Part shown: positions 881 through 17,585 of the stretch, piece by piece | How positions within the stretch are numbered: the first letter of the stretch is position 1 | How the letters are laid out: each line of letters begins with the position of its first letter | NCBI GenBank assembly: GCA_019038815.1 | Contig: JAHOYS010000382.1 | Location: 1 to 32,774, forward strand | Length of the DNA: 32,774 nucleotides | Reading direction: 5' to 3' | Source of the DNA: Desulfobacterales bacterium | GTDB lineage: Bacteria > Desulfobacterota > Desulfobacteria > Desulfobacterales > Desulfobacteraceae | Translations under genes and position numbers: made by a program | Notes under the pieces: model-generated | The model's input: only the letters and a program-made list of their open reading frames with translations | Databases searched by the model: none | What the model was told of the DNA's origin: nothing

Positions 881-1746
881 CAAAAAAGAAAAAGAAAAAC
901 ACTGGACTGGGACGGGGAATTTCAGCACTGATTCCTGATGTTGAAACCCTTGAAGGCAACTCTGATTTTCTTATGTGCCCTGTTGGGGATATTGCACCTA
1001 ACAGGTATCAGCCCAGAACTGTATTCAGCCGGGAAGAACTTGACAGATTAAAGGAATCTATTGCACTGCGGGGTGTTTTACAGCCTTTATTAGTAAGGCA
1101 CCTTGATGACTCCTATGAGTTGATAGCAGGAGAGAGAAGACTTCGTGCCGCCAGGGAAGCTAATTTGACCCATGTGCCCGTGTTTGTAAAAAACTTGACC
1201 GATGAACAGGTACTGGAAGTTTCCATTATTGAGAATATCCAAAGAGAGGATTTAAATGTTCTTGAAGAGGCAGAGGCTTATCATCGATTGATTCATGAGT
1301 TTAATTATACCCAGGAAAAAGTTGCCAAAAAAATTGGAAAGAACCGTTCTACCATCGCAAATCTGATTCGCCTTAGAAGCCTTCCCCAGGTGATTAAAGA
1401 CAGTCTGATTGCCGAAAAAATATCTATGGGACATGCAAGAGCCCTGTTAGGGGCAGGTTCCCAGGAAAACCAGATTTATCTTTTTAAAATAGTCCTTGAA
1501 AAAGAGTTGTCTGTAAGGCAGACGGAAAAACTTGTCAACAATGTCAAACAAGAACCCCAAAGATTGCAGAAAAAAATATCTGCTGTAGAAAAGAAACTTC
1601 TTGAAGAGACCTGTTTAATCCTTTCCAATCGAATCAAATCCAACGTCAGGATTAAAAAGAACGGAGATAAAGGTAAAATAGAAATCAATTTTAAATCAAG
1701 AACAGAGTTTCAACGCCTGATCGATCTTTTGACTAATCTTTCATGA
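877..1746 (+). CDS. parB: ParB/Spo0J-type partitioning protein
   Basis: ParB-family DNA-binding CTPase, partner of ParA. The N-terminal box LGRGISALI is the ParA-interacting segment typical of chromosomal ParB. It is followed by the ParB/Srx domain with GERRLRAAR and the IIENIQREDLN segment (about residues 40-130), then a helix-turn-helix around KVAKKIGKNRSTIANLIRL (about 145-175). A basic C-terminal dimerisation domain ends the protein. The 289-residue length is normal. It overlaps parA by 4 nt at the start and overlaps the following ispH fusion gene by 4 nt at the end (ATGA), so the three genes form one translationally coupled operon. Confidence 0.95.
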   Translation: MTKKKKKNTGLGRGISALIPDVETLEGNSDFLMCPVGDIAPNRYQPRTVFSREELDRLKESIALRGVLQPLLVRHLDDSYELIAGERRLRAAREANLTHVPVFVKNLTDEQVLEVSIIENIQREDLNVLEEAEAYHRLIHEFNYTQEKVAKKIGKNRSTIANLIRLRSLPQVIKDSLIAEKISMGHARALLGAGSQENQIYLFKIVLEKELSVRQTEKLVNNVKQEPQRLQKKISAVEKKLLEETCLILSNRIKSNVRIKKNGDKGKIEINFKSRTEFQRLIDLLTNLS

Positions 1747-3458
1747 AAATAGTTGTCGCGAAAACCGCTGGATTTTGTATGGGAGTCCGGCGCGCTGTGG
1801 ATATGGTGTTGGATGCATCCAACTTGTCTTCTGACCCGATTTATACCTATGGTCCTTTGATCCATAATCCCCATGTCCTTGCCATGCTTGAAGAAAAAAA
1901 GATTTTCAGAATTGATAAAATCCCTGAAAAGGGGAGTGGTATTGTTCTTGTCCGGGCACACGGGGTTCCGCCGGACGATAAAAAAGCCTTGGAGGATGCC
2001 GGTTTTACTGTGATAGATGCGACCTGCCCCAGGGTGGTAAGGGTCCAGGTGATTATTAGTAAATATGCCCGGAAAGGCTATTCAACTATTATTATCGGAG
2101 ATGAGAAACACCCGGAAGTGGTGGGTCTTTTAGGCTATGCAAAAGGAAACGGGCATACCATCACATCCATAGATCAGCTTTCCACACTACCCAGGTTTAA
2201 AAATGCCATCGTGGTTGCCCAAACGACTCAGGATACGGGCTTTTATGATGGAATAAAAGCCTGGTGTGAGGCTCATGCACCTCATTATGAGATATTTGAT
2301 ACTATTTGTGGCTCCACTGAAAAAAGGCAGGCTGAAATCCGAACGCTTGGCAAGGAAAATGATGCGGTCGTTGTTGTTGGCGGGAAACAAAGCGGAAACA
2401 CAAAACGGCTGGCCCAGATCGCATCCCAGACAGGGAAACTCACAGCCCATATTGAGGATGTTACCCAAATTGATTATGAGAAATTGTCATCAGTCGGTTC
2501 TGTCGCGATAACAGCCGGGGCTTCTACACCAAACTGGATCATTAATGACGCATACGTTCAGATAGAAAACAACCTTCAACGGCAGCATCCTGCCCGGGTA
2601 CTTTTATTTTTAATCCGCGATTTCTTATTGAAAACCAATATAATGGCCGCAGCAGGCGCAGGTTTTTTGACCTATGCGTGTTCTGTACTTCAAGGGATTG
2701 ATCAAAATCTGCATCATGCTGTGATAGCCATGCTGTATGTGCTTTCAATGCAGATACTGAATAATTTATTCACTGTTAAGCCTGATAAATATAATCATCC
2801 CCAAAGGGCACTTTTTTATAAGAAAAATCGAGTGTGCCTGTGGTTTGTTGCTGTTTTATCAGGTGTGGCAGGTCTTAGCCTTAGCTTTATTACAACCGGG
2901 GCATTGTCTTTTTTTATTCTGTTTGTCATGAGCCTTTTGGGGTTGTCATACAATTTTAAAATCATTCCTTTACCATTAAAAAAAGGACAGATTGGCCGAT
3001 TAAAAGATATTTCCGGCTCAAAAACCATTCTGATTACCATTGCCTGGGGAACAGTCACCTGCCTTTTGCCGGCAGTGGCAAATCAAAGTAATTTGCTGTC
3101 TGTCGCAATGGTGTTCTTATTTGCTGTCGGCCTGGTATTTGCGAGAACAGCCTTTTTTGATATTCTTGCCATTCAGGGTGACAGAATTACCGGAAAAGAA
3201 ACCCTTCCCATCCTTTTAGGAGAAAAGGCAAGTTTTAGAATCATACAATATGTTTTGATAGCGGATATGGGTATTGTTTTTTTGACATTTTTTACCGATC
3301 TATTGGTAAACAAAGCTTTTTTTCTTGCTTCCATTCCCTTTTTTATGTTTTTGTTAATAAAATTTTTTCAAAAAGACAGCCTTATCCCAGGTGTGCATCT
3401 GGAATTTTTTATTGAATTTTTATTTATTGCCGCTGGATTGACAGCCATTTTAATCTAA
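1743..3458 (+). CDS. ispH: IspH (HMBPP reductase) fused to a UbiA-like prenyltransferase domain
   Basis: Residues 1 to about 280 are a complete IspH/LytB, the [4Fe-4S] enzyme that reduces HMBPP to IPP and DMAPP in the MEP pathway. The three cluster cysteines are C12 (GFCMG), C95 (DATCP) and C189 (TICGS). The substrate-pocket histidines are in IHNPH, RAHG and EKHPE. Residues about 285-571 are a multi-helix membrane domain aligning with UbiA prenyltransferases. NNLFTVKPDKYNHPQR matches the NDxxDxxxD...NxPxR motif and FDILAIQGDR matches the DxxxDxxGDR motif. Several metal-binding Asp are replaced: N341 and T344 in motif 1 and A476 in motif 2, while D348, D473 and D480 remain. The prenyltransferase activity is therefore uncertain. 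The gene overlaps parB at its start and converges with the acyltransferase gene, sharing 4 nt at the stop codons. Confidence 0.9.
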   Translation: MKIVVAKTAGFCMGVRRAVDMVLDASNLSSDPIYTYGPLIHNPHVLAMLEEKKIFRIDKIPEKGSGIVLVRAHGVPPDDKKALEDAGFTVIDATCPRVVRVQVIISKYARKGYSTIIIGDEKHPEVVGLLGYAKGNGHTITSIDQLSTLPRFKNAIVVAQTTQDTGFYDGIKAWCEAHAPHYEIFDTICGSTEKRQAEIRTLGKENDAVVVVGGKQSGNTKRLAQIASQTGKLTAHIEDVTQIDYEKLSSVGSVAITAGASTPNWIINDAYVQIENNLQRQHPARVLLFLIRDFLLKTNIMAAAGAGFLTYACSVLQGIDQNLHHAVIAMLYVLSMQILNNLFTVKPDKYNHPQRALFYKKNRVCLWFVAVLSGVAGLSLSFITTGALSFFILFVMSLLGLSYNFKIIPLPLKKGQIGRLKDISGSKTILITIAWGTVTCLLPAVANQSNLLSVAMVFLFAVGLVFARTAFFDILAIQGDRITGKETLPILLGEKASFRIIQYVLIADMGIVFLTFFTDLLVNKAFFLASIPFFMFLLIKFFQKDSLIPGVHLEFFIEFLFIAAGLTAILI

Positions 3459-4348
3459 ATTTTTGCTTTCAAAACTTTAATTTTTTCGTCTTTTTTTTGC
3501 CATAAATCGTTCAGCCAGATAAAAAAACGGTTTTTATACTCGGGATCATTAAAATAATCTCCGGTCAGAGAATCAGTCAAGGAGATGACGTCAAAGTCAA
3601 TAATAATTTTATCGACCCTGCCTGAAATATATTGCCAGAATGTGGGGATTTTATCCGGGTACACAATAGTGACATCAATGATTTTATGAAGGTAATCACC
3701 CATGGAGCCCAGGACAAAAGCAACCCCACCGGCTTTCGGGATCAAAAGGTGATTGAAATGATTGTTTTGGGAATTATTTTTACGCTGTGTGAATCTTGTT
3801 CCTTCGACAAAATTCATGATAGAGACCGGCGTATGTTTAAATTTTTCACATGCTTTTTTTGTGCTGGCAAGATCTTTATTTTTTAGATGGGGTTTTTCCT
3901 CCAATTGTTTTTTTGAATATCGTTTCATAAAAGGAAAATCCAATGCCCACCAGGCAAGCCCCAGGAACGGAACCCAGATCAATTCTTTTTTTAAGAAAAA
4001 TTTCAGCATGGGGATCTTTTGATTTAATGTTGTCTGCAATGCTAAAATGTCCACCCAGGACTGGTGATTGGAAATCACCAGGTACCATTCTTTTTTTTCT
4101 AATTTTTCAAGCCCCCGGATATCCCATTCTATTTTACAGAACAGTTTTGAGTTGAATGAATTAACTCCTATCCAGAGAGTGGCAATGGATATCAGGATGT
4201 TGTCAAGAATCACAACAACTGAGTTGATCGGGGTAAGAAATTTGAAAAAAGAAACTATAATCAATGGGATGGTTAAAGAGATGGTATTCACAGTGTATAA
4301 TAATATTGACAAAACGCCTTTGATTGAGTGCGGTAGAAAATATAACAT
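3455..4348 (-). CDS. PlsC/YihG-like lysophospholipid acyltransferase
   Basis: Membrane-bound glycerolipid acyltransferase of the PlsC (LPLAT) superfamily. It has a hydrophobic N-terminal segment (about residues 10-60). The catalytic HX4D block is NHQSWVDI, and the substrate-binding motif is FVEGTRFT about 95 residues later. The overall length (297 aa) and the NHQSW block are closest in my memory to E. coli YihG rather than housekeeping PlsC. The start codon lies 8 nt beyond the stop of the upstream sigma54 activator gene on the same strand and has no obvious Shine-Dalgarno, which suggests translational coupling. Its position beside a PUFA-synthase-like gene suggests, by inference only, that it places that enzyme's acyl product into a phospholipid or related lipid. 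Confidence 0.88.
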   Translation of the reverse strand: MLYFLPHSIKGVLSILLYTVNTISLTIPLIIVSFFKFLTPINSVVVILDNILISIATLWIGVNSFNSKLFCKIEWDIRGLEKLEKKEWYLVISNHQSWVDILALQTTLNQKIPMLKFFLKKELIWVPFLGLAWWALDFPFMKRYSKKQLEEKPHLKNKDLASTKKACEKFKHTPVSIMNFVEGTRFTQRKNNSQNNHFNHLLIPKAGGVAFVLGSMGDYLHKIIDVTIVYPDKIPTFWQYISGRVDKIIIDFDVISLTDSLTGDYFNDPEYKNRFFIWLNDLWQKKDEKIKVLKAKI

Positions 4349-4356
4349 AAAAAGAG

Positions 4357-5841
4357 TCAGGCTTTTTTAAAATTCATGATATGTTTTTTTATAGTTCTTC
4401 TATCCAGCCCTGTCAGTTTTGCGACCTTTTCGTATGTGCCGGCATCATCGTACAAAAGCTTGCAATATCCTGATACCAGGGATGACACTAAAATATCCCG
4501 GTCTGAAATCCCTTGTAAAAGTTTCTGTTTCAAGGAGGCGGTTTTTTCTTCGTCTTTTTGTTTGCCTTTATAGTCCCGTCTTAACAGAACACTTCTGACA
4601 CACTGTTCAAGCTCCCGAACATTTCCTGGCCATTGATAATCCTTTCCAAGCCGGCGGTCAATAATTCTTTTAACTTTCAGGATTAATTTTTCAGAATGGG
4701 TACCGGCCATTTTTTTTATGGTGAAATCAAGAAGGTCATCGATTTCAGATGGGTTTTCCCTGATTCTGGTTCTAAGGGGCGGTACTTCAATGATATCGGA
4801 ACACAGCCTGTAATAAAAATCGTCCCTGAATACCTTGCCGCTGAGAATATCTTTTTTAGGCCGGTTGGTGGCAGCAATGACCCTTCCGTTAAATCTTGAT
4901 TTTTCATGGGTACCGACAGGGGAAAAGCTTCTCTCCTGGAGAACTCTTAACAGTTTGATCTGTACATGGCTGGGGATTTCACCGATTTCATCTAAGAGGA
5001 TGGAGCCATGAGGACTGCACCGGTCAAACACACCCTGGTAATTATCGACAGCCCCGGTAAATGCACCTTTTGTATGCCCGAACAGTTCTGATTCGAGCAG
5101 GGTCTCAGGATACTGGGAAAGGTTCAGGGAAGAAAAGGCCCGGGTGAAGCTCTGGGTAAAACATTGCTTTTTTGTATCAAAGGGAATGTATCCGCTTCTG
5201 CCGATAGCTTTGGCAGCCGTACCCTTTCCCGTGCCGGTTTCACCCAGAAGCAGAGTAGAAAAATCCTCCATCTTGTCCCATAGAAATTTGTTGTATAGAT
5301 CAAAATTATAAGTGAAAACATTGTACCATAAATGTTTTTTCAGCTTTTGCATACATGGGCTGTTTCCCACAAGGGAGTTGGAAATAAAGTAAAAGGCCCG
5401 TCTGAGTTGATAGGAAAGGGCAAAATAATGGGGGATGCTCTTAGCGTCAAATCCATTTGTATGGAGCATGTGCATGGCTTTTTCAGCAAAGGGAACCTTG
5501 ATTGGTGTGTCTTCGGCCTTGATTTGATCCTTTATCAGCTGGTCAAAATCATCCTTGAATTTGTAAAAGAGATCAAACAGGAATACAATCGTGATGATTT
5601 CCTTATCCTGGTCGTGAAATGCGTTGATATTGGCACGACCCTGGCTTTCAAGTTTTTTTATCCTGTGGTCCACTTCTTTAATACATTGATCAATACTCTC
5701 CCGCCTGGAAGCTGAAGGGAAAAGGCCTGCTATTTTAAGATCAAGTTTTTCTCTTAAATCGCTGAACGGGTTTGCAAAAGCGGCATTATAGACTGTCTTG
5801 AAAAAGTGGCGTTCTTCTGAATTAAGTGTTGCTTTTTTCAA
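4357..5841 (-). CDS. Sigma54-dependent transcriptional activator (bEBP) without a receiver domain
   Basis: Bacterial enhancer-binding protein of 494 residues. The AAA+ domain (about residues 165-405) has Walker A GETGTGKG, the sigma54-contacting loop GAFTGA, Walker B ILLDEIGEIP and the arginine-rich segment near RVIAATNRP. The C-terminus carries a Fis-type helix-turn-helix (YEKVAKLTGLDRRTIKKHI). The N-terminal 165 residues are probably helical and match no receiver, PAS, GAF or V4R domain that I recognise, so the signal is unknown. The start is a TTG at 5841 with a GGAG Shine-Dalgarno 7 nt upstream. It is transcribed divergently from the megasynthase, whose upstream region has a -24/-12 promoter, so it is the obvious candidate activator. 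The acyltransferase gene follows it directly. Confidence 0.93.
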   Translation of the reverse strand: MKKATLNSEERHFFKTVYNAAFANPFSDLREKLDLKIAGLFPSASRRESIDQCIKEVDHRIKKLESQGRANINAFHDQDKEIITIVFLFDLFYKFKDDFDQLIKDQIKAEDTPIKVPFAEKAMHMLHTNGFDAKSIPHYFALSYQLRRAFYFISNSLVGNSPCMQKLKKHLWYNVFTYNFDLYNKFLWDKMEDFSTLLLGETGTGKGTAAKAIGRSGYIPFDTKKQCFTQSFTRAFSSLNLSQYPETLLESELFGHTKGAFTGAVDNYQGVFDRCSPHGSILLDEIGEIPSHVQIKLLRVLQERSFSPVGTHEKSRFNGRVIAATNRPKKDILSGKVFRDDFYYRLCSDIIEVPPLRTRIRENPSEIDDLLDFTIKKMAGTHSEKLILKVKRIIDRRLGKDYQWPGNVRELEQCVRSVLLRRDYKGKQKDEEKTASLKQKLLQGISDRDILVSSLVSGYCKLLYDDAGTYEKVAKLTGLDRRTIKKHIMNFKKA

Positions 5842-5881
5842 TTCGATTCTCCATCAGCTATCATTGCCGTTAATGTGCAAT

Positions 5882-5910
5882 TTTGTACACCTCATATGCA
5901 TAAAATGCAA
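5882..5910 (-). promoter_or_regulatory. Possible sigma70-type promoter of the bEBP gene
   Basis: Read on the minus strand, TTGCAT and TACAAA are separated by exactly 17 nt, about 40 nt before the bEBP start codon. The match to consensus is moderate (3/6 and 4/6). The -35 box overlaps the TGCAT-AAA-ATGCA palindrome, so a protein bound there could repress this gene. Confidence 0.3.
5897..5909. promoter_or_regulatory. Palindrome TGCAT-AAA-ATGCA, candidate activator site
   Basis: A perfect 5-bp inverted repeat with a 3-bp spacer, about 90 bp upstream of the -24 element of the sigma54 promoter. This is a normal distance for a bEBP upstream activating sequence. The assignment rests on position and symmetry only. 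Confidence 0.35.
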
Positions 5911-5921
5911 GAAAAAATTTG

Positions 5922-5932
5922 CTGCCTGGCAG
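5922..5932. promoter_or_regulatory. Palindrome CTGCC-T-GGCAG, second candidate activator site
   Basis: A perfect 5-bp inverted repeat around a single base, 25 bp downstream of the first palindrome and about 64 bp upstream of the -24 element. The same sequence core (CTGCCTG/CAGGCAG) recurs in the hairpin after the megasynthase. That may be coincidence, but it is worth noting for a binding-site search. Confidence 0.3.
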
Positions 5933-5995
5933 TTCAAAAAGAAAAATAAAGTAAAAAACACTATTATTTATGTTGGTTATGTCTTTCAAGGGGTT

Positions 5996-6011
5996 TGGCA
6001 CAATACTTGAA
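5996..6011 (+). promoter_or_regulatory. Sigma54 (-24/-12) promoter of the megasynthase
   Basis: TGGCAC-AATAC-TTGAA matches the TGGCAC-N5-TTGCW consensus with correct spacing. The only core deviation is A for C in the -12 GC doublet. The expected transcription start is near 6021, giving a leader of about 80 nt. The divergent bEBP gene supports the assignment. Confidence 0.75.
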
Positions 6012-6049
6012 GTATATGATTAGGATTTAAGTAATTAAGTTAACGTGAA

Positions 6050-6072
6050 TTTTCATGGCTGTACCATGGAAA
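6050..6072 (+). promoter_or_regulatory. Leader hairpin upstream of the megasynthase ribosome binding site
   Basis: TTTTCATGG-CTGTA-CCATGGAAA can form a 9-bp stem with one G-U pair and a 5-nt loop, ending about 20 nt before the GGAG Shine-Dalgarno at 6093-6096. It lies in the leader predicted from the sigma54 promoter. A regulatory role is possible but not shown. Confidence 0.35.
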
Positions 6073-6103
6073 TGAAACCAAAAATAAATTATGGAGAACA
6101 CTT

Positions 6104-9100
6104 ATGATTAGAAGAATACTGAATTCAAGACTTCCTTTAATGGTTTATAACCCTGTAAAGGTGTTTGATGTAAAGTATTTTAAAAAGATTTTCAACGCTG
6201 GCGCTCTTCCGGTATTTGATACAGAATTTTTAACCCATGACGATATACTTCAAAACGCCTTGTTGCTTTCCAAAGAAAAATTTAGTTTTGGTATCAGGCT
6301 TTCAACCCATGATAATGAGCTGATCGAAAAAATCAAACAGCAGCAGATGATGAATCTTGATCTTTTAATTTCCCCTCTTACAAAAGATGATACGCCTGCA
6401 GAATTCAGTAATTTCAGCGACACTAAAATCGTTCTTGAAATCAAGGACATTAATATCAATGACAGGATAAAAGCGGTATCTCCCCATGCCTTGATTTTAA
6501 AAGGAAATGAAGCCGGCGGAAAGGTTTCAAAATATTCTTCTTTTGTTTTGATGCAATGGTATTTGAAAAATAGTGAATTACCGATATTTATCCATGGCGG
6601 TGTCGGAAGATATACGGCTGCCGGTATGTTTGCAGCAGGTGTTTCAGGTCTTGTCATGGACAGCCAGTTTCTTATGACGGATGAAGCCCCGGTATCGGAT
6701 AATTTTAAAAAGCTTTTGGCCATGGTGGATGAAAGTGATTCCACTGAAATTAACTATAAAGGCAGCGACATTTACCGGGTGTTTGCAAAACTGGGTACTA
6801 AAATTGTTAAAGACCTGAAACTTGCCGCAGTTGAATTTGGTGATGATCCAAATGGCAGACAAAAGATTTATGAAGCCATCGCGGATAATATGGCAGCCTT
6901 TGACAACGAGGACACCCCGTTTATCCAGTCCCTTTTTTACCTGGGCCAGGATGGCGTATTTGCCAAGGATTTTGTAAAAGAGTCAACAAGTCTCAAAGAA
7001 ATTATTTCAAGTTTTTTCAAATCCATTGGTGAGAACTTAAATTTTATTGATAATAACGATCCCATAAAACCGGGTTCACCATTTGCCAAGGATCAGGGAA
7101 CCAAATTCCCGTTAATCCAGGGACCCATGGCAAATATTTCAGATAACTCTGATTTTGCAAATAAGGTTCTAAAAGAGGGAGCATTGCCGTTTTTTGCAGT
7201 GGGAAGTCTTCCTGAACAGCTGGCGGACGATATGCTCAAAGACGGTGCCAAAAAAGTAGATAATTTTGGTGCCGGACTTGTGGGGATTGAAGCGTTTAAT
7301 CCCGCGGTAAAACAACATCTGGACATGGTTAAAAAATATAAGGTTCCCTATGCTCTTTTTGCAGGAGGGATTCCTTCCCAGGCGGTAGAACTTGAAGAAG
7401 CAGGAACCAAAACTTATTTGCATACCCCATCAGTATCCATGATGGAAAATGCCCTGAAAAGCGGATGCAGACGGTTTATTTTTGAAGGCGGGGAAGCAGG
7501 CGGTCATGTGGGCACTCTTTCTTCCATGGTTCTGTGGGAAGATGCCATTGCTACATTGATCAATAAAAATTATGATCTTACTGGTTTATACCTGGTATTT
7601 GCCGGCGGTATCTCCACCTGTTTTGCATCATTTTTTATTTCAGGGCTCACATCCTTTCTTGCGGCTAAAGGGGCAAAAATCGGTATCCAGGTGGGAACTG
7701 CCTACCTTTTTGCCGATGAAATCGTGGCAACCAAAAGTATTAAACCTCAGTACCAGGAAATTATTATCAGGGAAAATGAGACCATGGTCATCGGCAAAAG
7801 CTTAGGGCTGGCATCCAGGACCGCGCCCACCGAGTTTGCCCGAAGGATGGTTGAAAATGAAACCCGGATGATGAAAAACAAGGAAAGCCTGAAAACAAGA
7901 AAGCGTGTCTTTGAAAAGAAAAATATAGGTTCGCTGCTGATAGGTGCAAAAGGGTTCCTGCCGGATTTTAAAAACCCCGGACCTGAGAATTACACCTGGT
8001 TTGAAGATGAAGAACACAAAGAAAAGGGCAATTTTCTTGTGGGGGACAGCCTGGCCTTTTTTGATCGGTCAGTCACTATAAAACAGATCCACGATAAATA
8101 CTTTGAAGCCAAATCAGCACTTTATACAAATATTAATTTTCTTGAAATATTTTCAAGTTCAAAAAATAAAATTAATGATGAAATTGCCGTGGTGGGTATC
8201 GGTTGTACCCTGCCGGATGCCGATGATCCGGACAGTTTGTGGGAAAATATTTTAAACAAAAAATATTCCATCAGCCAGATACCGGATTCAAGACTTGACC
8301 ACGATCTTTATTATGACCCTGACAAAAGTGCGGAAGATAAAACCTACACCACCCTTGCAGGACATGTAGACCATTTTGAGTTTGAGTGGGAACGGTTCGG
8401 GTATGCTGAAGGCAAAGAAAAAAGACTTTCCCGCAGTCAGAAAATGGTGTTGCAGACTGCATATAAGGCAGTTGAGAATGCAGGATTTCTGGGAGATGAT
8501 AATCGCCTGGCCTGTGATGATCCTGCAAGAACTGCCGTTATTATTGCCACCTGCCTTTCCAATGAGCTGGGAAATGACCTTCAGCTTAAATACTGGTATC
8601 CACAACTTGTTTCCATGATGGAGAAAACAGATGAATATCAGATCTTAAGTGATGAAGAAAAAGAGGGAGTCAAACAAGCTTTAATGGAAGGCCTGGAAGG
8701 GGAGAACAAAGGATATGATCCTGTCCATGGCATGCTTTTGAACATTGAAGCCTCAAGGATTGCCCGGCACTTAGGTATCCGGGGCGCAAATTATGTCGTG
8801 GATGCTGCCTGCGCATCCTCTGTCACTGCACTTGACGCTGCAACAGATGAACTTTTGTCCGGTGAACACGACCAGGTCATTGTGGGTGGGGTAAATACCA
8901 ATCTGACACCTGAAGCCTTTGTTGGATTTGCAAAAATGGGAACCTTGTCAAAGGTTGGGTCATTCCCTTTTGACGAGCGGGCTGACGGGTTCATCCTGGG
9001 AGAGGGTTCGGTTGTTTTTGTATTAAAAAGAATGAAAGATGCGATCAGGGACAAGAACCGTATTCTGGGTATTATCAATTCCATTGGTTCAAGTTCTGAC

Positions 9101-12100
9101 GGCAAAGGAAAGGCCATTGCCGCACCAAATCCAAAAGGGCAGGTATTAAGCGTCAGGCGGTGTTTTGAAAATATCCGGCCTGATATCACCCCGGAAGATA
9201 TCGGATTTATTGAAGCACATGGTACATCCACCACTATCGGTGATCAGGCAGAGCTTGAAACCTTGAATTCCATATATAAGAATGCCAGTGCCGGTATCAG
9301 TTCCATAAAATCTCAGATCGGTCACCTTTTAGGGTGTGCTGGATCAGCAGGGCTTTTAAAGGCATTATTAACTGTTAACAAAGGAATTTTGCCACCCAAT
9401 GGTCGATTTGAAACCCTTTCAAAAAATCATGATTTAAATGGATCATCCCTGTTCATTGTAAAAGATTCACAAGAATGGAAACCTGAAGGCAGCACATCCA
9501 GAAAGGCTGCTGTTTCTTCTTACGGGTTTGGCGGTATCAACTATCATATTGTTGTTGAGCAGATGACCCAGAGTTACAAGCAGATTCCCCGGGATATTTT
9601 TACCAACCCTGCCTATGATTTTAATGATGACAGAATTGTGGTTGCAGGCCTCGGGGTTTTCCTTCCGGGTGCAAAAAACACAGAGGAGTTCTGGGAGAAA
9701 CTTCAATCAGGGGAAAAACAATTGTCCCATATCCCGGCTGTCCAGTTTGACAATGATGCCTATGCAGATCTTGATAAAAATTCCAATTACAGGCTTCCCA
9801 AAGTAAATGCGGGTGTGGTCAAAGAACATAAGTTCAATAATTTGAAATACAGAATGCCCCCAATGATGGTAAAATCCATTGAAAGGGGACAGATCTTCGG
9901 GCTGGAAGCAGCCAGTGAGGCACTTGAAAGTTCAGGCCTGCTTGCGCAGCTGTCTGCCGATAATAAAGTCGGCGTCATTCTTGGTACCATTTCAGGAGAA
10001 CGCCAGAGCAAAAATATTATCAGGGTCAGAAAGCAATTTATCGGCAATATCATTAAAAATTGTTCCAGGATTGATTCTGCAAAACTCAACAGACTTTCAA
10101 AACAGGTTGTGGAATTCATCCGGGATACGATTCCGGAGAACAATGAAGATACCACCCCCGGGCTTTTATCCAATATTATCTCAGGCAGGATAACCAATTA
10201 TTTTGGTCTCAACGGGGCTAATTACGTGATTGATGCATCCTGTGCATCTTCCTCCATTGCCATAAGAAATGCAGCCAGGAATTTAAAACACAAAGATCTT
10301 GATTTTGTCCTTGCAGGCGGGGTCGACTGCAACCTGTACCCGGCAGTTCTCATGGCATTCAAACGCCTTGGCCTTTTGTCGGAAGGAGACTGTAACTTTT
10401 ATGATTCAAGGGCTGACGGGTATGTCATGGGCGAGGGCGCAGCTATCCATATTATGACCACCTATAAAAAGGCCAGAGAGTACAATATGGAGATTCTGGG
10501 CGAGATCAACGAAAGCTCTGTGCGCTCAAGTGTGCCGGATCATCTGCTTGCTCCTTCTGAACAGACCTTTGTATCCACCATAAACGAAACCTATTATAAA
10601 TCCGGGATCAGAAAGCAGGATATCAATCATCTGGATGTATTTGCATTTTCCAATATTTTTGGAGATATCGTTGAAAAGCAGGTGATCGAACATTGTTTTG
10701 ACCATGAAATGCATTGTGGAAACGTTAAATCCCAATTTGGATATTTTAAAGCTGCCAACCCGGCTGTTGCTTTAGCAAAGCTTATGCTCATGAACAAGAA
10801 GAGGAAAATTCTGCCCGACTTTAATTATAATTCCGAGCATTCCATTTTAAATGACAGCACCATTTTAAAGCCTGCCCAACAGATGATTGTAAAGTCCAAA
10901 GGGCAGCCCTTCAGGTTTGCGGCCAATGTCAACGGTATCGGCGGTAATCACTGCCATATGATCATGAGCACATTGCCGGCCCGGCTTGAAAGCCAGGAAG
11001 AGGTTGTGGAAGCGGAGTTCAAGGCAGCAGCTGGAGATGATATCGTATTAATAGATCATGCTTACTCTGCTGATAATATGGGTAAAAAATTGAGAATGGT
11101 CGCGCTTCTTTCCGGACAGGGTGCCCAGAGAAGCCGCATGATGAAGGAACTTTTCAAAAAAGATGACCATATCAGAAAAATAATGGAAAAAGGCGAAAAG
11201 ATTTTTGTTGAACAGCGTGGTTACTCTCTGCTGGAGTTGATGTTCGGCACGGATGATTCCATTAACTCAACACAGAATACTCAACCGGCAGTCTTCCTTT
11301 CTTCTGCCGCTGTTTACAGCCGACTGTCCCGGGAAGGATTTTCACCCGATTACTTCATCGGTCACAGTGTGGGAGAATACACAGCCCTTTTTTGCAGCGG
11401 CGTGCTTTCTTTTGACGATGCCATGCGTCTGATCATCAAACGCTCAGACCTTATGCATGAAGCCACGTTAAAGGTGCCGGGTAAAATCATGGTGGTATTT
11501 AAAAATGAAAAAGAGACAGGGCATCTGATCAGAAAAGCCTTTATTTCCAATATCTATATTACCAATAAAAATAGCGAAAAACAGACTGCTGTCTCAGGAA
11601 AGGCTGAGGATATTGATAAGTTCTGCACTTTTCTGACCCAGCAGGAGGTTTTTTACAAAAAGCTGAATCTTACAGGTGCCTTTCATACGCCGCTGTTGAA
11701 AGAGGCTTCACAAAAATTAAGGGAGTATCTGGATACGGTTACCTTTAATGATACCTGGTTTGGGAAAATTATTTCCAATACCACTGCAAGGCCATATCCT
11801 GAGAGGCCCGAAGATGTAAAAGATCTGCTGGCAAGACAGATTATCTCTCCGGTTGAATTTATTAAATCCATTGAGAATGTGTATATATCCGGCAGGACCC
11901 ATTTTATAGAGATCGGTCCATCAAGGCTGCTGGTGAATCTATTGAAAAATATTAATATCGGAGAATATGCCACAGCTGTTTCTGTGGATGCGAAAACTGG
12001 AGAAATCAAATCATTTGAAGAGTGTAGAAAATATCTCATAAGCTGCAATGCAATTTTTGAGACAAAACCTGTCCCTGTAAGCGGTCTGAAAATTACCCCT

Positions 12101-15100
12101 GAGAATAGAGAGGAGTTGCCAAAAATAGAAATGTCTGAAGATTTTGAATCCTTTAAACAGAATAATCAGGAACTGGTCGATCAGATCCTTTACAAGGAAT
12201 ATCAGCACCAGAAACGTCAATCTGCTATTAATGCCATTGAAAGATATGATTTTAATACCAACAAAATATTAATTTCAGGTGTTTCTGTAGGGCTTCCGGG
12301 CAAAGCAAGGCGCGTGTTTGCTGCCGATAATTTTGATGCTATTCTCAATGGCGAAAACTTTATTGATTCCCTGACAGTTGAAGCCCAGGAGAAAATTATT
12401 GATAAGAATATCACCAAACTTTATAAACAGCCTGATGGTAATGCAAGATTTGTCCAGATCACTAAAGCTGAAGATGTGATCCATCTGGCAGGACAGTTAG
12501 GGTATTTTAACCTCAATGATGAATACGGCATTAAAGAACAATATGATATCACCATGGCTATAGGTATTGCTGCCGGGATTGAAGCCTTAAAAGACGCGAA
12601 CATACCTCTTGTCATGCAGTATAAAAAGGTGAAAGACGGAAAGACCATGATTCCTGACGGGTTTGCTCTGCCCGAAGAGATGCAGGAAGAAACAGGGGTG
12701 ATTATTACATCGTTATGGCCCAATGGCGAAACCCTGCTGTCAGAGTTTGAAAAATATTTTTATGAGAAAATGTTTCTTAAACCCTATGAAGAGTTTGAAA
12801 AAATTTATTATTATCTCATGGAGAAAATAAAAGATCAGGATATTAAAGAACAGCTGACAGAGTGGTTTTTCAAGGCAAAGTCAAGAAAACGGTCAGATTT
12901 TGGTCCTTACAAGTTTGACAGGAATTTTCTGGCCAATGCCTGTCCTCTGGGGTCTGCCCATCTGGCTCAGATTATAAAGGCCAAAGGTCCCAACACGCTG
13001 GTAAGTTCTGCCTGTGCTTCCACTACTCTTGCCATTGGTATTGCTGAAGACTGGATCAGGGTTGGCCGATGTAAAAGAGTGCTTGTGATTGGTGGTGAGA
13101 ATGTGACTACTCCGAGTCAGAATCAGTGGGTGGGATCAGGATTCCTGGCACTTGGGGCCGCCACTATCAAAAAGAGAGTCTCGGAAGCAGCCAAGCCCTT
13201 TGATGAAGACCGTAACGGAACTATCCTGGGTTCCGGTGCTGTAGGTCTTGTCGTTGAAAGTGAAAGCTGTGCAAGGAAAAGAGGCATGAACGGCCAGTGT
13301 GAGATTCTTGGCACCCATATCGCCAATTCAGCTTTTCACACCTATAATATTGATGTGCCCCACATGTCCTATGAGATGAAAAAATTCATCAGTAAAGTGG
13401 AAAAACAAAATGGGATTGAGAAAGAAGAGTATGCAGACAAGCTCCTTTTCATGTCCCATGAAACCTACACTCCGGCAAGGGGAGGCAGTGCCGATGCTGA
13501 GGTAACTGTTCTTGAAACAACCTTTGCCGATCATTTGGACAGTATCTGCATATCCAACACCAAGGGATTTACAGGCCATACCCTAGGGGCGGCCATAGAA
13601 GATGTTGTACTGGTCAAGGCGCTCCAGAAAAGAAAAGCTCCCCCCATTGCAAACCTTCAGAAAATACCTGAGCATTTCAGAAAACTCAATTTTTCAGGCC
13701 AGCAGAAAATTAATTCTGAATATGGTCTTCATCTGTCTGCCGGATTTGGTTCTCATTTTGCTTTCATGTTTGTCAAACGGGTAGAGGAAAATCAGGTTGA
13801 AGGCAATGTTCGATATAAGAACTGGGTAAAACAGATCACCGGATCTGAAAATCCTGAACTTAAGATTATTGATAATACCCTTTGTGCTGTGGCCGGAGGG
13901 GAAGCCCTGCCGGTGTTACCAAAGAAAACAAGAAAAATTGTAAAACCGGCAATTACGATTCCTGCCATGCCGGCGGCGCCTGTCCCTGTTGCCGCAGTGA
14001 AAGAAACAGGCACGGCAGTTGAAACCAAACCTGTTGAAGAGACAGCCAAAGGCGTATCTGAAGGTGGCCCTGCTATTGAGCCTGCCATAAAAACAGTTAA
14101 GTCAATAATTGCCGAGCAGACCGGATATACTGCTGATATGCTGGAAGATGATCTGGATCTTGAAGCAGACTTGGGGATTGACACGGTAAAACAGGTTGAA
14201 ATTTTTGCCAAGGTGGCTTCCTATTTCAGCTTTTCAGTACCGGATGATTTAAAACTCCGGGACCTGAACACCATTGCCAAGCTGGCCGACTATGTCGTTA
14301 CAAAAACAGATACCCCAGTGATAGAAACAAAAATTTCTGCTCCTGATGTTCAGATAGATACCCCACCGACACCGGGAGCACCAATCCCCTCCACTGCCAT
14401 TGATACGGTCAAGGACGTTATTGCCGAGCAGACCGGATATGCGGTGGACATGCTGGAAGATGATCTGGATCTTGAGGCAGATCTCGGGATTGATACGGTG
14501 AAACAAGTAGAGATTTTTGCCAAGATCTCTTCCCATTTTGGTTTTCCGGTACCGGATGATTTAAAACTCCGGGATCTGAACACTATTGCCAAACTGGCCG
14601 GGTATATCCAGTCCAGATCCGGTGTGCCTGTTGAAGCGGAAAAACAGGAAGACGCACCAAAACCTGCGCCTGCAGCGGTTGATGAGCCGGCACAGGGTGA
14701 GGATGCAACCGCTGTTGTTAAAGAGGTGATTGCCGTCCAGACCGGATATGCGGTGGACATGCTGGAAGATGATCTGGATCTTGAGGCAGATCTCGGGATT
14801 GATACGGTAAAGCAAGTAGAGATTTTTGCCAAGATCGCTTCCCATTTTGGTTTTTCAGTACCGGATGATTTAAAACTCCGTGATCTGAATACCATTGCCA
14901 AACTGGCCGAGTATATCCAGTCCAGGGCTGGAGCTGTACAAGCGCCTCAAACAGAAGAAGCGACTGCTGTGGAAAACAATGAAGTTCCACCGGTAAGCGA
15001 CATCACCATCCCTTTAAATGAAGATGATGAATTTCCTGATCCTGCATCACCCATCAAACGGCTGATTGTAAGGGTCAGAGAATCCCAGATTCCTGAACTT

Positions 15101-17545
15101 TCCAAAAAGGATTTTACAGGGAAAAAGATCATTGTTTCCCTTGACAGCCACGGGTTTGCCAAAAAAATTATCGAAAAGATAAAAAAGAAAAAAGGCGAAG
15201 TCATTACCATTGGCGGCAAAGGCGCCGATTTTAAGTTTGACCTGACCGATGTCAAAGCCACGGAAAAGAGGGTGGAAGAATTTAAAGAAGTCTATCCGGA
15301 AGTGAACGGGTTCATTCATCTGTCACCACTTGATTACTATTTTGACAGGAAAGATGGAAAAGGTGATTCAGATGATGCTCTCAATACAAGTATCAAATCC
15401 TTTTTTGTCATGCTTAAAGCTCTGTTTAAAACCCTTGATCAAAAAGAGAATATCATCGGGACAATTTCATTCGATTCGGTTGTATTTCCATATATGGAAG
15501 GCTGCGGTGATATCCATCCCATGTTTGCAGGACTTTCCGGCCTTTTGAAAACCGTGAACAAGGAGATGCCGGACACCATGGTCAAGGTGGTGGACTTTTC
15601 TTATAAACAGCCCAAAAAGAGCACGGGAAGGATTGCAGATATATTCTTAAATGAGCTTCTTTGCGATGATACAAGATGCGAGGTGGGATATAAAAATAAA
15701 AAACGGTATGTCCTCTCCATGAAGCCTTCCATCGCAGATAAAACGCAACAAATCATATCTGAGAATGATACCATGCTGGTTACAGGCGGAGCCGGCGGCA
15801 TTACCTATGAAATCATTAAAAAAGTTGTTGAAAAATATAAGACCAACCTGATTATCCTGGATATCAATGATATTTACAGTACCGATCCGAAATATCTGGA
15901 TAAAGCATCTACCGGGGCAGACCTCATGGGTCTGCTCAGAGAGGATATGCCCGGGGTAAAACCCGTTGAAATCAAACGTGCCCTTGATCGCCTGATGCGG
16001 GTTCGGCAGTCACTTGAAAACATTGAATACCTTCAATCTCTGGGTGTCAGTGTTGAGTATAATTGTGTGGATGTAACCAATGCAAAAGCTGTTAAGGAGA
16101 CTGTGGACAAGTATGACAGGATCGACGGCATTTTCCATGCTGCGGGCATGGAAATGAGCCAGTTTATTCCTAAAAAAGAACTCTGGTCTTTTGAACTGGT
16201 TGTGGATGTCAAGGTCAAAGGCATGAGAAATCTTTTACAGGCCTTCAAAGACAGGGAGTATAAATACTTTTTTACTTTCTCATCGGTCACTGCCCGTTTT
16301 GGGAATGAAGGCCAGGTGGATTATACATCTGCCAATGATTTTCTCGGGAAGACGCTTTTCAGGCAGCAACAGCTCCATCCTGAAAGAAATTATAAAGTCT
16401 ATGCATGGACAGCCTGGGACGGCGTTGGCATGGCAACCAATCCAACCGTGAAAAAGGTGCTGGAAGAAAGAGGCATCCAGTTCCTTCCAATGGAACAGGG
16501 TATCAAGTTTTTCATGGCGGATCTCCTGGATAAAACAGACTCTGAAATGGTATTTTCAGGCCTTGATTATTCATTTGACAGGGACGGTCTTCTGGGAGAT
16601 CCTGAGAAAGTCCAATTTCCATTTCTGGGCGATCTGCTGGAAAAGACCCCTGCCGGAACTATCTATTCAAGAGTGCTGGACATGGACCGGGATGTCTTTC
16701 TCCATGATCATACCATGGAAGATGTGCCGCTTTTTCTTGGCGCAACCGGGATTGAAACCATGGCCGAAGTTGCAAGCTCCCTGTCCGAAGATAAATCGCA
16801 TTTTGTTGAATTAACGAATTTTCAGATTCCTTACGGGATCAAGCTTTTAAAGGGACGTCCAAAAGAACTTCTGATTTCAGGAAACAAAGGAAAAGACGGC
16901 TTGTTTAACTGCAGGATAACATCCCAGTTTAAAAATCCCCAAGGCCTTGTTATGGGGGAACCCAAACTTCACTATGAAGGGGAATACAGGTTTGCCGAAA
17001 AGCTTTTAAAATCAAAAAAGATCAAGCTGCCGGAATTCAACCCGGTTTCCCGGAAAGATGATATTGAAACCCTGATATATAATCCCAAACGGCTGTTTAT
17101 GTTCGGCCTTTTCAACACCATCACGGATATTAACTCCTTTGACGGTAAAATATTGATCACAACCGTGGAAGATAAAAGCCGAAAAGAGTTTTTTAAAGGG
17201 GTGAAAGATCCCAATTTTGTGGCTGCCCCCATCCTGCTTGACGCCATATTCCAGACTGGTGGATTACTTGAATTTTTTACCACCTCAAGGACAGTTCTGC
17301 CCTATAAAATAAAGTCCTTGAAGTTTTATAAGGCTGTTGAAAAAAATCGGGAATATTTCTGTATTACCCAGAAGATGGACTCAGGTGAAGAAACCAATAC
17401 CTATAACCTGCAACTGGTTGATAAAAAAGGAAATGTTTTTATCGAAGTGGACAGTTTTGAAATGGTAAAGCTCAACCGCCTTGATCCTGAGGACAGGATA
17501 GTTGACCTGGTTGATTTTTCGTTTTCCAAGGCAAAGGTAAATTAA
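6104..17545 (+). CDS. PUFA-synthase-like (Pfa-like) type I megasynthase, NPD-NPD-KS-KS-AT-KS-ACP3-KR-DH
   Basis: A single 3813-residue iterative-looking fatty-acid/polyketide synthase. Residues 1-230 are an NPD-like TIM-barrel half with the His of the EAGGH motif replaced (EAGGK, K140). Residues 330-600 are a second NPD/PfaD-like enoyl-reductase-type domain with intact EAGGH (H468). KS1 (690-1150) has C903, H1039 and H1074. KS2 (1175-1625) keeps C1380 but has F1513 and Y1547 in place of both His. AT (1660-1965) has GHSVGEY with S1755 and H1861. KS3 (2055-2560) is divergent, with C2304, H2452 (SHETYT) and H2492 (FTGHT). Three ACPs have Thr at 2694, 2798 and 2901, where LGIDS normally carries the phosphopantetheine Ser. 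KR has TGGAGG at 3227, S3394, Y3407 and N3411. DH (3525-3790) has H3536 (HDHTM) and D3713. Substrate and product are unknown. ATG at 6104 follows GGAG at 6093. No PPTase or dedicated release domain is visible. Confidence 0.92.
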   Translation: MIRRILNSRLPLMVYNPVKVFDVKYFKKIFNAGALPVFDTEFLTHDDILQNALLLSKEKFSFGIRLSTHDNELIEKIKQQQMMNLDLLISPLTKDDTPAEFSNFSDTKIVLEIKDININDRIKAVSPHALILKGNEAGGKVSKYSSFVLMQWYLKNSELPIFIHGGVGRYTAAGMFAAGVSGLVMDSQFLMTDEAPVSDNFKKLLAMVDESDSTEINYKGSDIYRVFAKLGTKIVKDLKLAAVEFGDDPNGRQKIYEAIADNMAAFDNEDTPFIQSLFYLGQDGVFAKDFVKESTSLKEIISSFFKSIGENLNFIDNNDPIKPGSPFAKDQGTKFPLIQGPMANISDNSDFANKVLKEGALPFFAVGSLPEQLADDMLKDGAKKVDNFGAGLVGIEAFNPAVKQHLDMVKKYKVPYALFAGGIPSQAVELEEAGTKTYLHTPSVSMMENALKSGCRRFIFEGGEAGGHVGTLSSMVLWEDAIATLINKNYDLTGLYLVFAGGISTCFASFFISGLTSFLAAKGAKIGIQVGTAYLFADEIVATKSIKPQYQEIIIRENETMVIGKSLGLASRTAPTEFARRMVENETRMMKNKESLKTRKRVFEKKNIGSLLIGAKGFLPDFKNPGPENYTWFEDEEHKEKGNFLVGDSLAFFDRSVTIKQIHDKYFEAKSALYTNINFLEIFSSSKNKINDEIAVVGIGCTLPDADDPDSLWENILNKKYSISQIPDSRLDHDLYYDPDKSAEDKTYTTLAGHVDHFEFEWERFGYAEGKEKRLSRSQKMVLQTAYKAVENAGFLGDDNRLACDDPARTAVIIATCLSNELGNDLQLKYWYPQLVSMMEKTDEYQILSDEEKEGVKQALMEGLEGENKGYDPVHGMLLNIEASRIARHLGIRGANYVVDAACASSVTALDAATDELLSGEHDQVIVGGVNTNLTPEAFVGFAKMGTLSKVGSFPFDERADGFILGEGSVVFVLKRMKDAIRDKNRILGIINSIGSSSDGKGKAIAAPNPKGQVLSVRRCFENIRPDITPEDIGFIEAHGTSTTIGDQAELETLNSIYKNASAGISSIKSQIGHLLGCAGSAGLLKALLTVNKGILPPNGRFETLSKNHDLNGSSLFIVKDSQEWKPEGSTSRKAAVSSYGFGGINYHIVVEQMTQSYKQIPRDIFTNPAYDFNDDRIVVAGLGVFLPGAKNTEEFWEKLQSGEKQLSHIPAVQFDNDAYADLDKNSNYRLPKVNAGVVKEHKFNNLKYRMPPMMVKSIERGQIFGLEAASEALESSGLLAQLSADNKVGVILGTISGERQSKNIIRVRKQFIGNIIKNCSRIDSAKLNRLSKQVVEFIRDTIPENNEDTTPGLLSNIISGRITNYFGLNGANYVIDASCASSSIAIRNAARNLKHKDLDFVLAGGVDCNLYPAVLMAFKRLGLLSEGDCNFYDSRADGYVMGEGAAIHIMTTYKKAREYNMEILGEINESSVRSSVPDHLLAPSEQTFVSTINETYYKSGIRKQDINHLDVFAFSNIFGDIVEKQVIEHCFDHEMHCGNVKSQFGYFKAANPAVALAKLMLMNKKRKILPDFNYNSEHSILNDSTILKPAQQMIVKSKGQPFRFAANVNGIGGNHCHMIMSTLPARLESQEEVVEAEFKAAAGDDIVLIDHAYSADNMGKKLRMVALLSGQGAQRSRMMKELFKKDDHIRKIMEKGEKIFVEQRGYSLLELMFGTDDSINSTQNTQPAVFLSSAAVYSRLSREGFSPDYFIGHSVGEYTALFCSGVLSFDDAMRLIIKRSDLMHEATLKVPGKIMVVFKNEKETGHLIRKAFISNIYITNKNSEKQTAVSGKAEDIDKFCTFLTQQEVFYKKLNLTGAFHTPLLKEASQKLREYLDTVTFNDTWFGKIISNTTARPYPERPEDVKDLLARQIISPVEFIKSIENVYISGRTHFIEIGPSRLLVNLLKNINIGEYATAVSVDAKTGEIKSFEECRKYLISCNAIFETKPVPVSGLKITPENREELPKIEMSEDFESFKQNNQELVDQILYKEYQHQKRQSAINAIERYDFNTNKILISGVSVGLPGKARRVFAADNFDAILNGENFIDSLTVEAQEKIIDKNITKLYKQPDGNARFVQITKAEDVIHLAGQLGYFNLNDEYGIKEQYDITMAIGIAAGIEALKDANIPLVMQYKKVKDGKTMIPDGFALPEEMQEETGVIITSLWPNGETLLSEFEKYFYEKMFLKPYEEFEKIYYYLMEKIKDQDIKEQLTEWFFKAKSRKRSDFGPYKFDRNFLANACPLGSAHLAQIIKAKGPNTLVSSACASTTLAIGIAEDWIRVGRCKRVLVIGGENVTTPSQNQWVGSGFLALGAATIKKRVSEAAKPFDEDRNGTILGSGAVGLVVESESCARKRGMNGQCEILGTHIANSAFHTYNIDVPHMSYEMKKFISKVEKQNGIEKEEYADKLLFMSHETYTPARGGSADAEVTVLETTFADHLDSICISNTKGFTGHTLGAAIEDVVLVKALQKRKAPPIANLQKIPEHFRKLNFSGQQKINSEYGLHLSAGFGSHFAFMFVKRVEENQVEGNVRYKNWVKQITGSENPELKIIDNTLCAVAGGEALPVLPKKTRKIVKPAITIPAMPAAPVPVAAVKETGTAVETKPVEETAKGVSEGGPAIEPAIKTVKSIIAEQTGYTADMLEDDLDLEADLGIDTVKQVEIFAKVASYFSFSVPDDLKLRDLNTIAKLADYVVTKTDTPVIETKISAPDVQIDTPPTPGAPIPSTAIDTVKDVIAEQTGYAVDMLEDDLDLEADLGIDTVKQVEIFAKISSHFGFPVPDDLKLRDLNTIAKLAGYIQSRSGVPVEAEKQEDAPKPAPAAVDEPAQGEDATAVVKEVIAVQTGYAVDMLEDDLDLEADLGIDTVKQVEIFAKIASHFGFSVPDDLKLRDLNTIAKLAEYIQSRAGAVQAPQTEEATAVENNEVPPVSDITIPLNEDDEFPDPASPIKRLIVRVRESQIPELSKKDFTGKKIIVSLDSHGFAKKIIEKIKKKKGEVITIGGKGADFKFDLTDVKATEKRVEEFKEVYPEVNGFIHLSPLDYYFDRKDGKGDSDDALNTSIKSFFVMLKALFKTLDQKENIIGTISFDSVVFPYMEGCGDIHPMFAGLSGLLKTVNKEMPDTMVKVVDFSYKQPKKSTGRIADIFLNELLCDDTRCEVGYKNKKRYVLSMKPSIADKTQQIISENDTMLVTGGAGGITYEIIKKVVEKYKTNLIILDINDIYSTDPKYLDKASTGADLMGLLREDMPGVKPVEIKRALDRLMRVRQSLENIEYLQSLGVSVEYNCVDVTNAKAVKETVDKYDRIDGIFHAAGMEMSQFIPKKELWSFELVVDVKVKGMRNLLQAFKDREYKYFFTFSSVTARFGNEGQVDYTSANDFLGKTLFRQQQLHPERNYKVYAWTAWDGVGMATNPTVKKVLEERGIQFLPMEQGIKFFMADLLDKTDSEMVFSGLDYSFDRDGLLGDPEKVQFPFLGDLLEKTPAGTIYSRVLDMDRDVFLHDHTMEDVPLFLGATGIETMAEVASSLSEDKSHFVELTNFQIPYGIKLLKGRPKELLISGNKGKDGLFNCRITSQFKNPQGLVMGEPKLHYEGEYRFAEKLLKSKKIKLPEFNPVSRKDDIETLIYNPKRLFMFGLFNTITDINSFDGKILITTVEDKSRKEFFKGVKDPNFVAAPILLDAIFQTGGLLEFFTTSRTVLPYKIKSLKFYKAVEKNREYFCITQKMDSGEETNTYNLQLVDKKGNVFIEVDSFEMVKLNRLDPEDRIVDLVDFSFSKAKVN
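14120..14924 (+). repeat. Three tandem acyl-carrier-protein repeats inside the megasynthase gene
   Basis: Three copies of a roughly 70-residue ACP module lie at a period of 103-104 residues, joined by Pro/Ala-rich linkers. Copies 2 (14432-14615) and 3 (14741-14924) differ at only about 9 of 184 nucleotides by my count, while copy 1 (from 14120) is clearly more diverged. All three read LGIDTVKQVEIF with an acg codon at the Thr. Confidence 0.9.
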
Positions 17546-17547
17546 AA

Positions 17548-17585
17548 ATAATACTTCTGCCTGAAATGCCAGGCAGAAGTATTAT
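17548..17585. terminator. Perfect 16-bp hairpin just after the megasynthase stop codon
   Basis: ATAATACTTCTGCCTG and its exact reverse complement flank a 6-nt loop (AAATGC), starting 2 nt after the TAA. No T-run follows on the plus strand, so classical intrinsic termination is uncertain. It may instead protect the 3' end of the mRNA or attenuate transcription into the SDR gene. Confidence 0.6.

Follow-up and report, generated by a model that had tools for sequence, protein, structure and literature searches.

A conserved, probable sigma54 promoter and paired putative activator sites between a divergent bEBP gene and a Pfa-like lipid megasynthase gene in Desulfobacteraceae

The locus described here raises the question of how a very large lipid synthase gene is controlled in a sulfate-reducing family, and whether the activator gene transcribed away from it is its regulator, as an earlier note on this DNA had proposed. 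The window, meaning the whole stretch of DNA analyzed, is 32,774 nucleotides long and belongs to a draft genome of 2.83 Mb in 415 contigs (97% complete), whose nearest named relatives are Desulfobacula of the Desulfobacteraceae. The features of the locus are collected in Table 1. For comparison, a set of 86 family genomes was used, in 73 of which an orthologue of the bEBP was found. After the removal of duplicates, 60 gaps between the bEBP and megasynthase genes were compared; the family counts given below are not independent, because the compared sequences are kin.

Table 1. Coordinates of the genes and sequence elements at the locus.
Feature	Position	Strand	Remarks
PlsC-type acyltransferase	3455..4348	-	8 bp after the bEBP gene; adjoins it in most of the family
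bEBP	4357..5841	-	one-component sigma54 activator; TTG start
Control region	5842-6103		between the bEBP and megasynthase genes
UAS site A	5874..5889	.	TGTGCAATTTTGTACA; probable bEBP dimer site; best-conserved upstream block
UAS site B	5895..5911	.	TATGCATAAAATGCAAG; contains the first palindrome
First palindrome	5897-5909		TGCAT-AAA-ATGCA; part of the conserved bipartite UAS
Second palindrome	5922-5932		CTGCC-T-GGCAG (CTGCCTGGCAG); not conserved
IHF-like element	5966..5979	+	ATTTATGTTGGTTA; between UAS and promoter; relatives ATTCAGnnnGTTA
Sigma54 -24/-12 element	5996..6011	+	TGGCAC-AATAC-TTGAA (TGGCACAATACTTGAA); motif match and family conservation
Leader hairpin	6049..6073	+	between predicted transcription start and ATG
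Megasynthase, Pfa-like lipid/polyketide type	6104..17545	+	3813 aa; ER-like(2)-KS-KS-AT-KS-ACPx3-KR-DH (Pfam)
Terminator-like hairpin	17550..17583	+	perfect 14-bp stem directly after the megasynthase stop; without long T run

The divergent gene does encode a bEBP, as had been claimed. Its product matches Sigma54_activat (E=1.2e-41), and the translation and alignment showed that its AAA+ motifs (Walker A GETGTGKG, Walker B ILLDEI, and GAFTGA) are intact and conserved. At the C-terminus, HTH helices were predicted at residues 452-467, 470-477, and 481-493, with weak Pfam HTH matches. The AlphaFold model has a mean pLDDT of 90 overall and of 92 for residues 1-190, which form an all-alpha N-terminal domain. 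In this domain no credible Pfam domain and no REC, GAF, PAS, or V4R sensor was found, and a PDB fold search gave no match at E below 1. Such known N-terminal sensors are common in bEBPs and are not required. Lacking a Pfam or PDB match, the domain does not allow the signal to be guessed from homology. None of the plasmid records carried this bEBP at E <= 1e-60. The host genome has rpoN, which was identified in a profile search (Sigma54_DBD, E=5.7e-60). The PlsC-type acyltransferase gene and the bEBP gene probably form one operon. Beyond it, positions 1743-3458 hold a single 571-aa ORF in which LytB (HMBPP reductase) is fused with a UbiA-type prenyltransferase; this ORF stands right behind parA-parB genes (101-1746).

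The megasynthase contains the Pfa-like module set (KS, CLF-like KS, AT, tandem ACPs, KR, DH, and PfaD-like ER) in one ORF. A FabA-type DH was not detected in this ORF with Pfam, just a PS-DH-type domain. By its domain content, the enzyme can be assigned to the Pfa-like secondary lipid synthase type, and its predicted product is a lipid. The hairpin behind its stop codon suggests a monocistronic transcript.

The earlier note had reported a sigma54-type element with correct spacing, 108 bp before ATG 6104 of the megasynthase, and the element was found there. Compared with TGGCAC-N5-TTGCW, the -24 part and the spacing (10 bp between GG and GC) are perfect, and the -12 doublet reads GA. The sequence TGGCAC-N5-TTGAA has a single exact match within the window. 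Across the 2.8 Mb of the host genome, TGGCAY-N5-TTG occurs 93 times, so a match alone proves little. The chance question is settled by the conservation of the promoter across orthologous gaps, a comparison that the earlier note had itself called for. In the correct orientation, TGGCAY-N5-TTG was present in 54 of the 60 gaps against a shuffled-gap mean of 0.075, and both the reversed pattern and the opposite strand gave 0. The strict motif is absent from six gaps, some of which have CGGCAC, TGGTAT, or ATG variants. The distance from the -24 element to the ATG ranges from 58 to 232 bp among relatives. Transcription is predicted to start at ~6022.

The base at -12 had been read as a deviation. 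GA does stand in place of GC, but it does not hold as a defect: the 54 relatives with the strict motif have A in 36 cases, T in 18, and C in 0. The family thereby departs from the sulfate-reducer consensus, which in Desulfovibrio vulgaris is tGGcacg and tTGCt (PMC4641369). Judged from the aligned gaps, a -12 base other than C is a fixed, conserved family property of the megasynthase promoter. Since the closed complex is stabilized through contacts at -12 and -11 (PMC3844500), a tuned or tightened promoter would be a reasonable reading. The idea that TTGAW marks a less common class of promoter in the genus was also considered and dropped; TGGCAC-N5-TTGCW and TTGAW counts both exceeded the reversed control, and the coding background prevents a clean comparison.

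Upstream of the promoter lie two blocks, UAS sites A and B, which are 21 bp or two helical turns apart. The core TTTTGTA of site A is near invariant across genera. In relatives, site A reads aaTGtGCA-wTTTTGTAcA and is followed 21 bp further by CAtAAAAtGCAAg. In several genera, site A starts ~118 bp upstream of -24 (mostly 117-120 bp), and the distance from the TTTGTA anchor to TGGCA is 113-116 bp in 35 of 43 regions. In three regions it is 126 bp, one helical turn more, as would be expected if the bEBP needs one face of the DNA. The two perfect palindromes described in the earlier note both exist. The first is part of site B; the second was ruled out as an activator site, with a perfect 5-1-5 palindrome at that place in just 3 of 43 regions, and the best-conserved half of the UAS, site A, had been overlooked. 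In the host genome, site A has a sole exact copy and one weak match at 2 mismatches, and site B has a sole exact copy with no second within 1 mismatch. Beyond that weak site A match, the search for a wider regulon in the host genome revealed no further UAS copies.

Between the UAS and the promoter, the window element matches the IHF consensus WATCAANNNNTTR partially and weakly. Many relatives have GTTR 15-17 bp ahead of TGGCA, the block ATTCAGnnnGTTA of relatives stands ~16 bp before -24, and four HU/IHF-family genes are present in the host genome. The sequences are suggestive of an IHF-type site between the UAS and the promoter. The stem of the leader hairpin is kept despite changed letters in eight Desulfobacula relatives, in which 93.8% of cells are paired versus 43-54% when the stem is slid, and the covariation is weak. 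In L026-L032, different hairpins were observed at comparable leader positions.

The link between regulator and target was examined across the 86 family genomes. Both genes were found in 68 genomes, neither in 11, and a single one in 5 and 2, numbers that are supportive only, because incomplete assemblies lose neighbors together and inflate joint absence; in several of the single-gene genomes the loci are at contig ends. In genus g3 (G007, G008, and G009), the bEBP and megasynthase genes are apart in the genome. In these three, TGGCAT-N5-TTGT, a TTTCA block, and UAS-like sequence still stand before the megasynthase, with the UAS position varying between 103 and 155 bp. The promoter appears to have been kept with the megasynthase after the separation, which argues for the link more strongly than co-occurrence does. 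In one genome that keeps the bEBP and in which no megasynthase was found (G085), the region upstream of the bEBP gene has no UAS and no -24/-12 site.

Outside the family, a scan of GTDB genomes revealed related bEBPs of about 39-58% identity in Desulfobulbales, Geobacter relatives, Acidobacteria, Planctomycetes, Lentisphaerae, Verrucomicrobia-type bacteria, and beta- and gammaproteobacteria. These distant bEBPs have similar paired TGTACA-like sites abutting their start codons, and TGGCAY-N5-NTG was found in 35 of 64 of their upstream regions (control, 0). By adjacency, the genes they face encode VIT/VWA proteins, acyl-ACP phospholipid O-acyltransferases, MFS proteins, NfeD, and others. The megasynthase is limited as cargo to the Desulfobacteraceae and a few neighbors (L094, L097, and Desulfoluna L109), and it was ruled out as the usual cargo in other phyla, where the cargo differs. 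Inside one genome, a second bEBP copy (L067, G020:C1), a paralogue of ~51% identity, faces another gene and has its own TGGCACGCAATTTGAT site; this suggests that cargo may be swapped within a genome. Opposite the related bEBP of a Lentisphaerales MAG (L105) stands a gene for a 1436-aa acyl-CoA dehydratase activase-type protein, and an acyl-ACP phospholipid acyltransferase-like gene follows. Tentatively, a joint reading can be offered in which a cross-phylum bEBP family not recognised before would use its all-alpha domain as a new ligand or protein sensor of membrane-lipid or envelope state. Its regulator-UAS-promoter cassette would swap cargo (lipid megasynthase, acyl-ACP phospholipid acyltransferases, VIT/VWA proteins), and the non-GC -12 would make a weak, tightly activator-dependent promoter.

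It is highly probable that the megasynthase is under a sigma54 promoter driven by the divergent bEBP. The control proposed in the earlier note has gained strong comparative support, about as much as sequence can give, in that several genera share the promoter, the UAS, and their spacing; it is further supported by the co-occurrence of the two genes, the retention of the promoter after their separation, the intact bEBP motifs, and the presence of rpoN. Weighing against it are the A or T at -12, the six gaps that lack the strict motif, the poor IHF match in the window, and the varying UAS position in genus g3. In the proposed mechanism, bEBP dimers would sit at the two UAS sites ~118 bp upstream of -24, and an IHF-type protein would probably bend the DNA between the UAS and the promoter. 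A signal at the N-terminal domain would lead to assembly of the AAA+ ring, whose GAFTGA would engage the sigma54 of RNA polymerase parked at the -24/-12 element. ATP hydrolysis would then open the promoter and allow megasynthase mRNA to be made from ~6022. The distance from the UAS to the start codon of the bEBP gene is ~33-55 bp, and the bEBP therefore probably controls itself as well. Very probably, the lipid pathway is switched by some signal through this conserved circuit.

Whether the pathway is silent before that signal is a separate matter. Sigma54 promoters are generally off without an activator (PMC3844500), and by this logic it is plausible that the megasynthase is silent until activated and that its product is missed in culture. 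A competing view, which we regard as possible but doubtful, accepts the sigma54 promoter and holds that the megasynthase is a near-core fatty-acid/lipid synthase working in normal growth, tuned by the bEBP to membrane state, with the weak -12 giving graded or leaky output. Of 42 high-quality family genomes, 40 carry the megasynthase, and a distribution so nearly universal fits a core trait under regulation better than it fits a cryptic cluster of rare occurrence. FabA-type dehydratase matches in family genomes lie mostly inside long ORFs (>1000 aa), the matches listed for the host genome include no stand-alone FabA/FabZ, and a Pfa-like synthase has been proposed as the core fatty acid synthase of Desulfobacterium autotrophicum (PMC3098273). 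Fatty acid synthesis in the family may thus rest on Pfa-like multidomain enzymes, and the PlsC-type acyltransferase in the regulator operon would fit a near-core role. Against such a role, besides the usual off-state, stand other long FabA-bearing ORFs in the same genomes, which could be the core synthase. One FabA-type dehydratase match has the coordinates G000:C71:4401-4808.

Returning to control by the divergent bEBP, it is very improbable that this protein has other targets and that the megasynthase element serves another bEBP of the host. About 26 further full-length Sigma54_activat matches are present in the host genome and many bEBPs work in trans, but the UAS halves are unique there, the UAS stays beside this bEBP also in distant phyla where the cargo is different, and the bEBP and megasynthase genes occur together. 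An ordinary sigma70 promoter, with the -24/-12 motif a chance match of a pattern that is not rare genome-wide, was ruled out as extremely unlikely, because sigma70-like sites in 5700-6200 are no more than chance (2 found, 2.0 expected) and the motif conservation and fixed spacing contradict it.

The arrangement resembles that of the divergent orp operons of Desulfovibrio vulgaris (PMC3897727), where in a sulfate reducer one bEBP (DVU2106) acts with IHF on sigma54 promoters; its palindromic sites lie between divergent genes, and IHF sites separate the UAS from -24/-12. The orp operons differ in having another bEBP and cell-division related orp targets, and were studied with reporter and gel-shift data, whereas the evidence here is comparative. 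The divergent one-component bEBPs DmpR/XylR/MphR (e.g., PMC3063778) are similar in that the activator gene diverges from a large target and a UAS, an IHF site, and -24/-12 are present; here the sensor is unrelated, all-alpha, and not aromatic-sensing, and a lipid synthase takes the place of a catabolic operon as the target. The megasynthase itself is similar to the secondary lipid (Pfa-like) synthases of Types C/I/K/S of Deltaproteobacteria (PMC3098273) in KS, KS/CLF-like, AT, ACP repeats, KR, DH, and PfaD-like ER. Type S includes sulfate reducers, e.g., Desulfobacterium autotrophicum, and an uncharacterised product is common to both. Here, in contrast, all modules are in one chain with the ER-like domains first. 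The words 'sigma' and 'transcription' are absent from that paper. In the open literature searched, with most subscription journals outside it, no paper was found that places a Pfa-like lipid synthase under sigma54. A sigma54 promoter paired with a bEBP is a textbook circuit; no description of this target, of this regulator family and its sensor, or of a fixed non-GC -12 turned up in that literature.

The circuit provides a handle on the conditions under which sulfate reducers of the family produce their Pfa-like lipid. The bEBP signal, or an activator without the N-terminal domain, should switch the pathway on and thereby make the product testable. One regulon likely brings together the lipid synthase, the acyltransferase, and the new sensor domain. 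With C lost at -12 throughout the family, the promoter is also a natural case for studying how sigma54 promoters tolerate and use that position.
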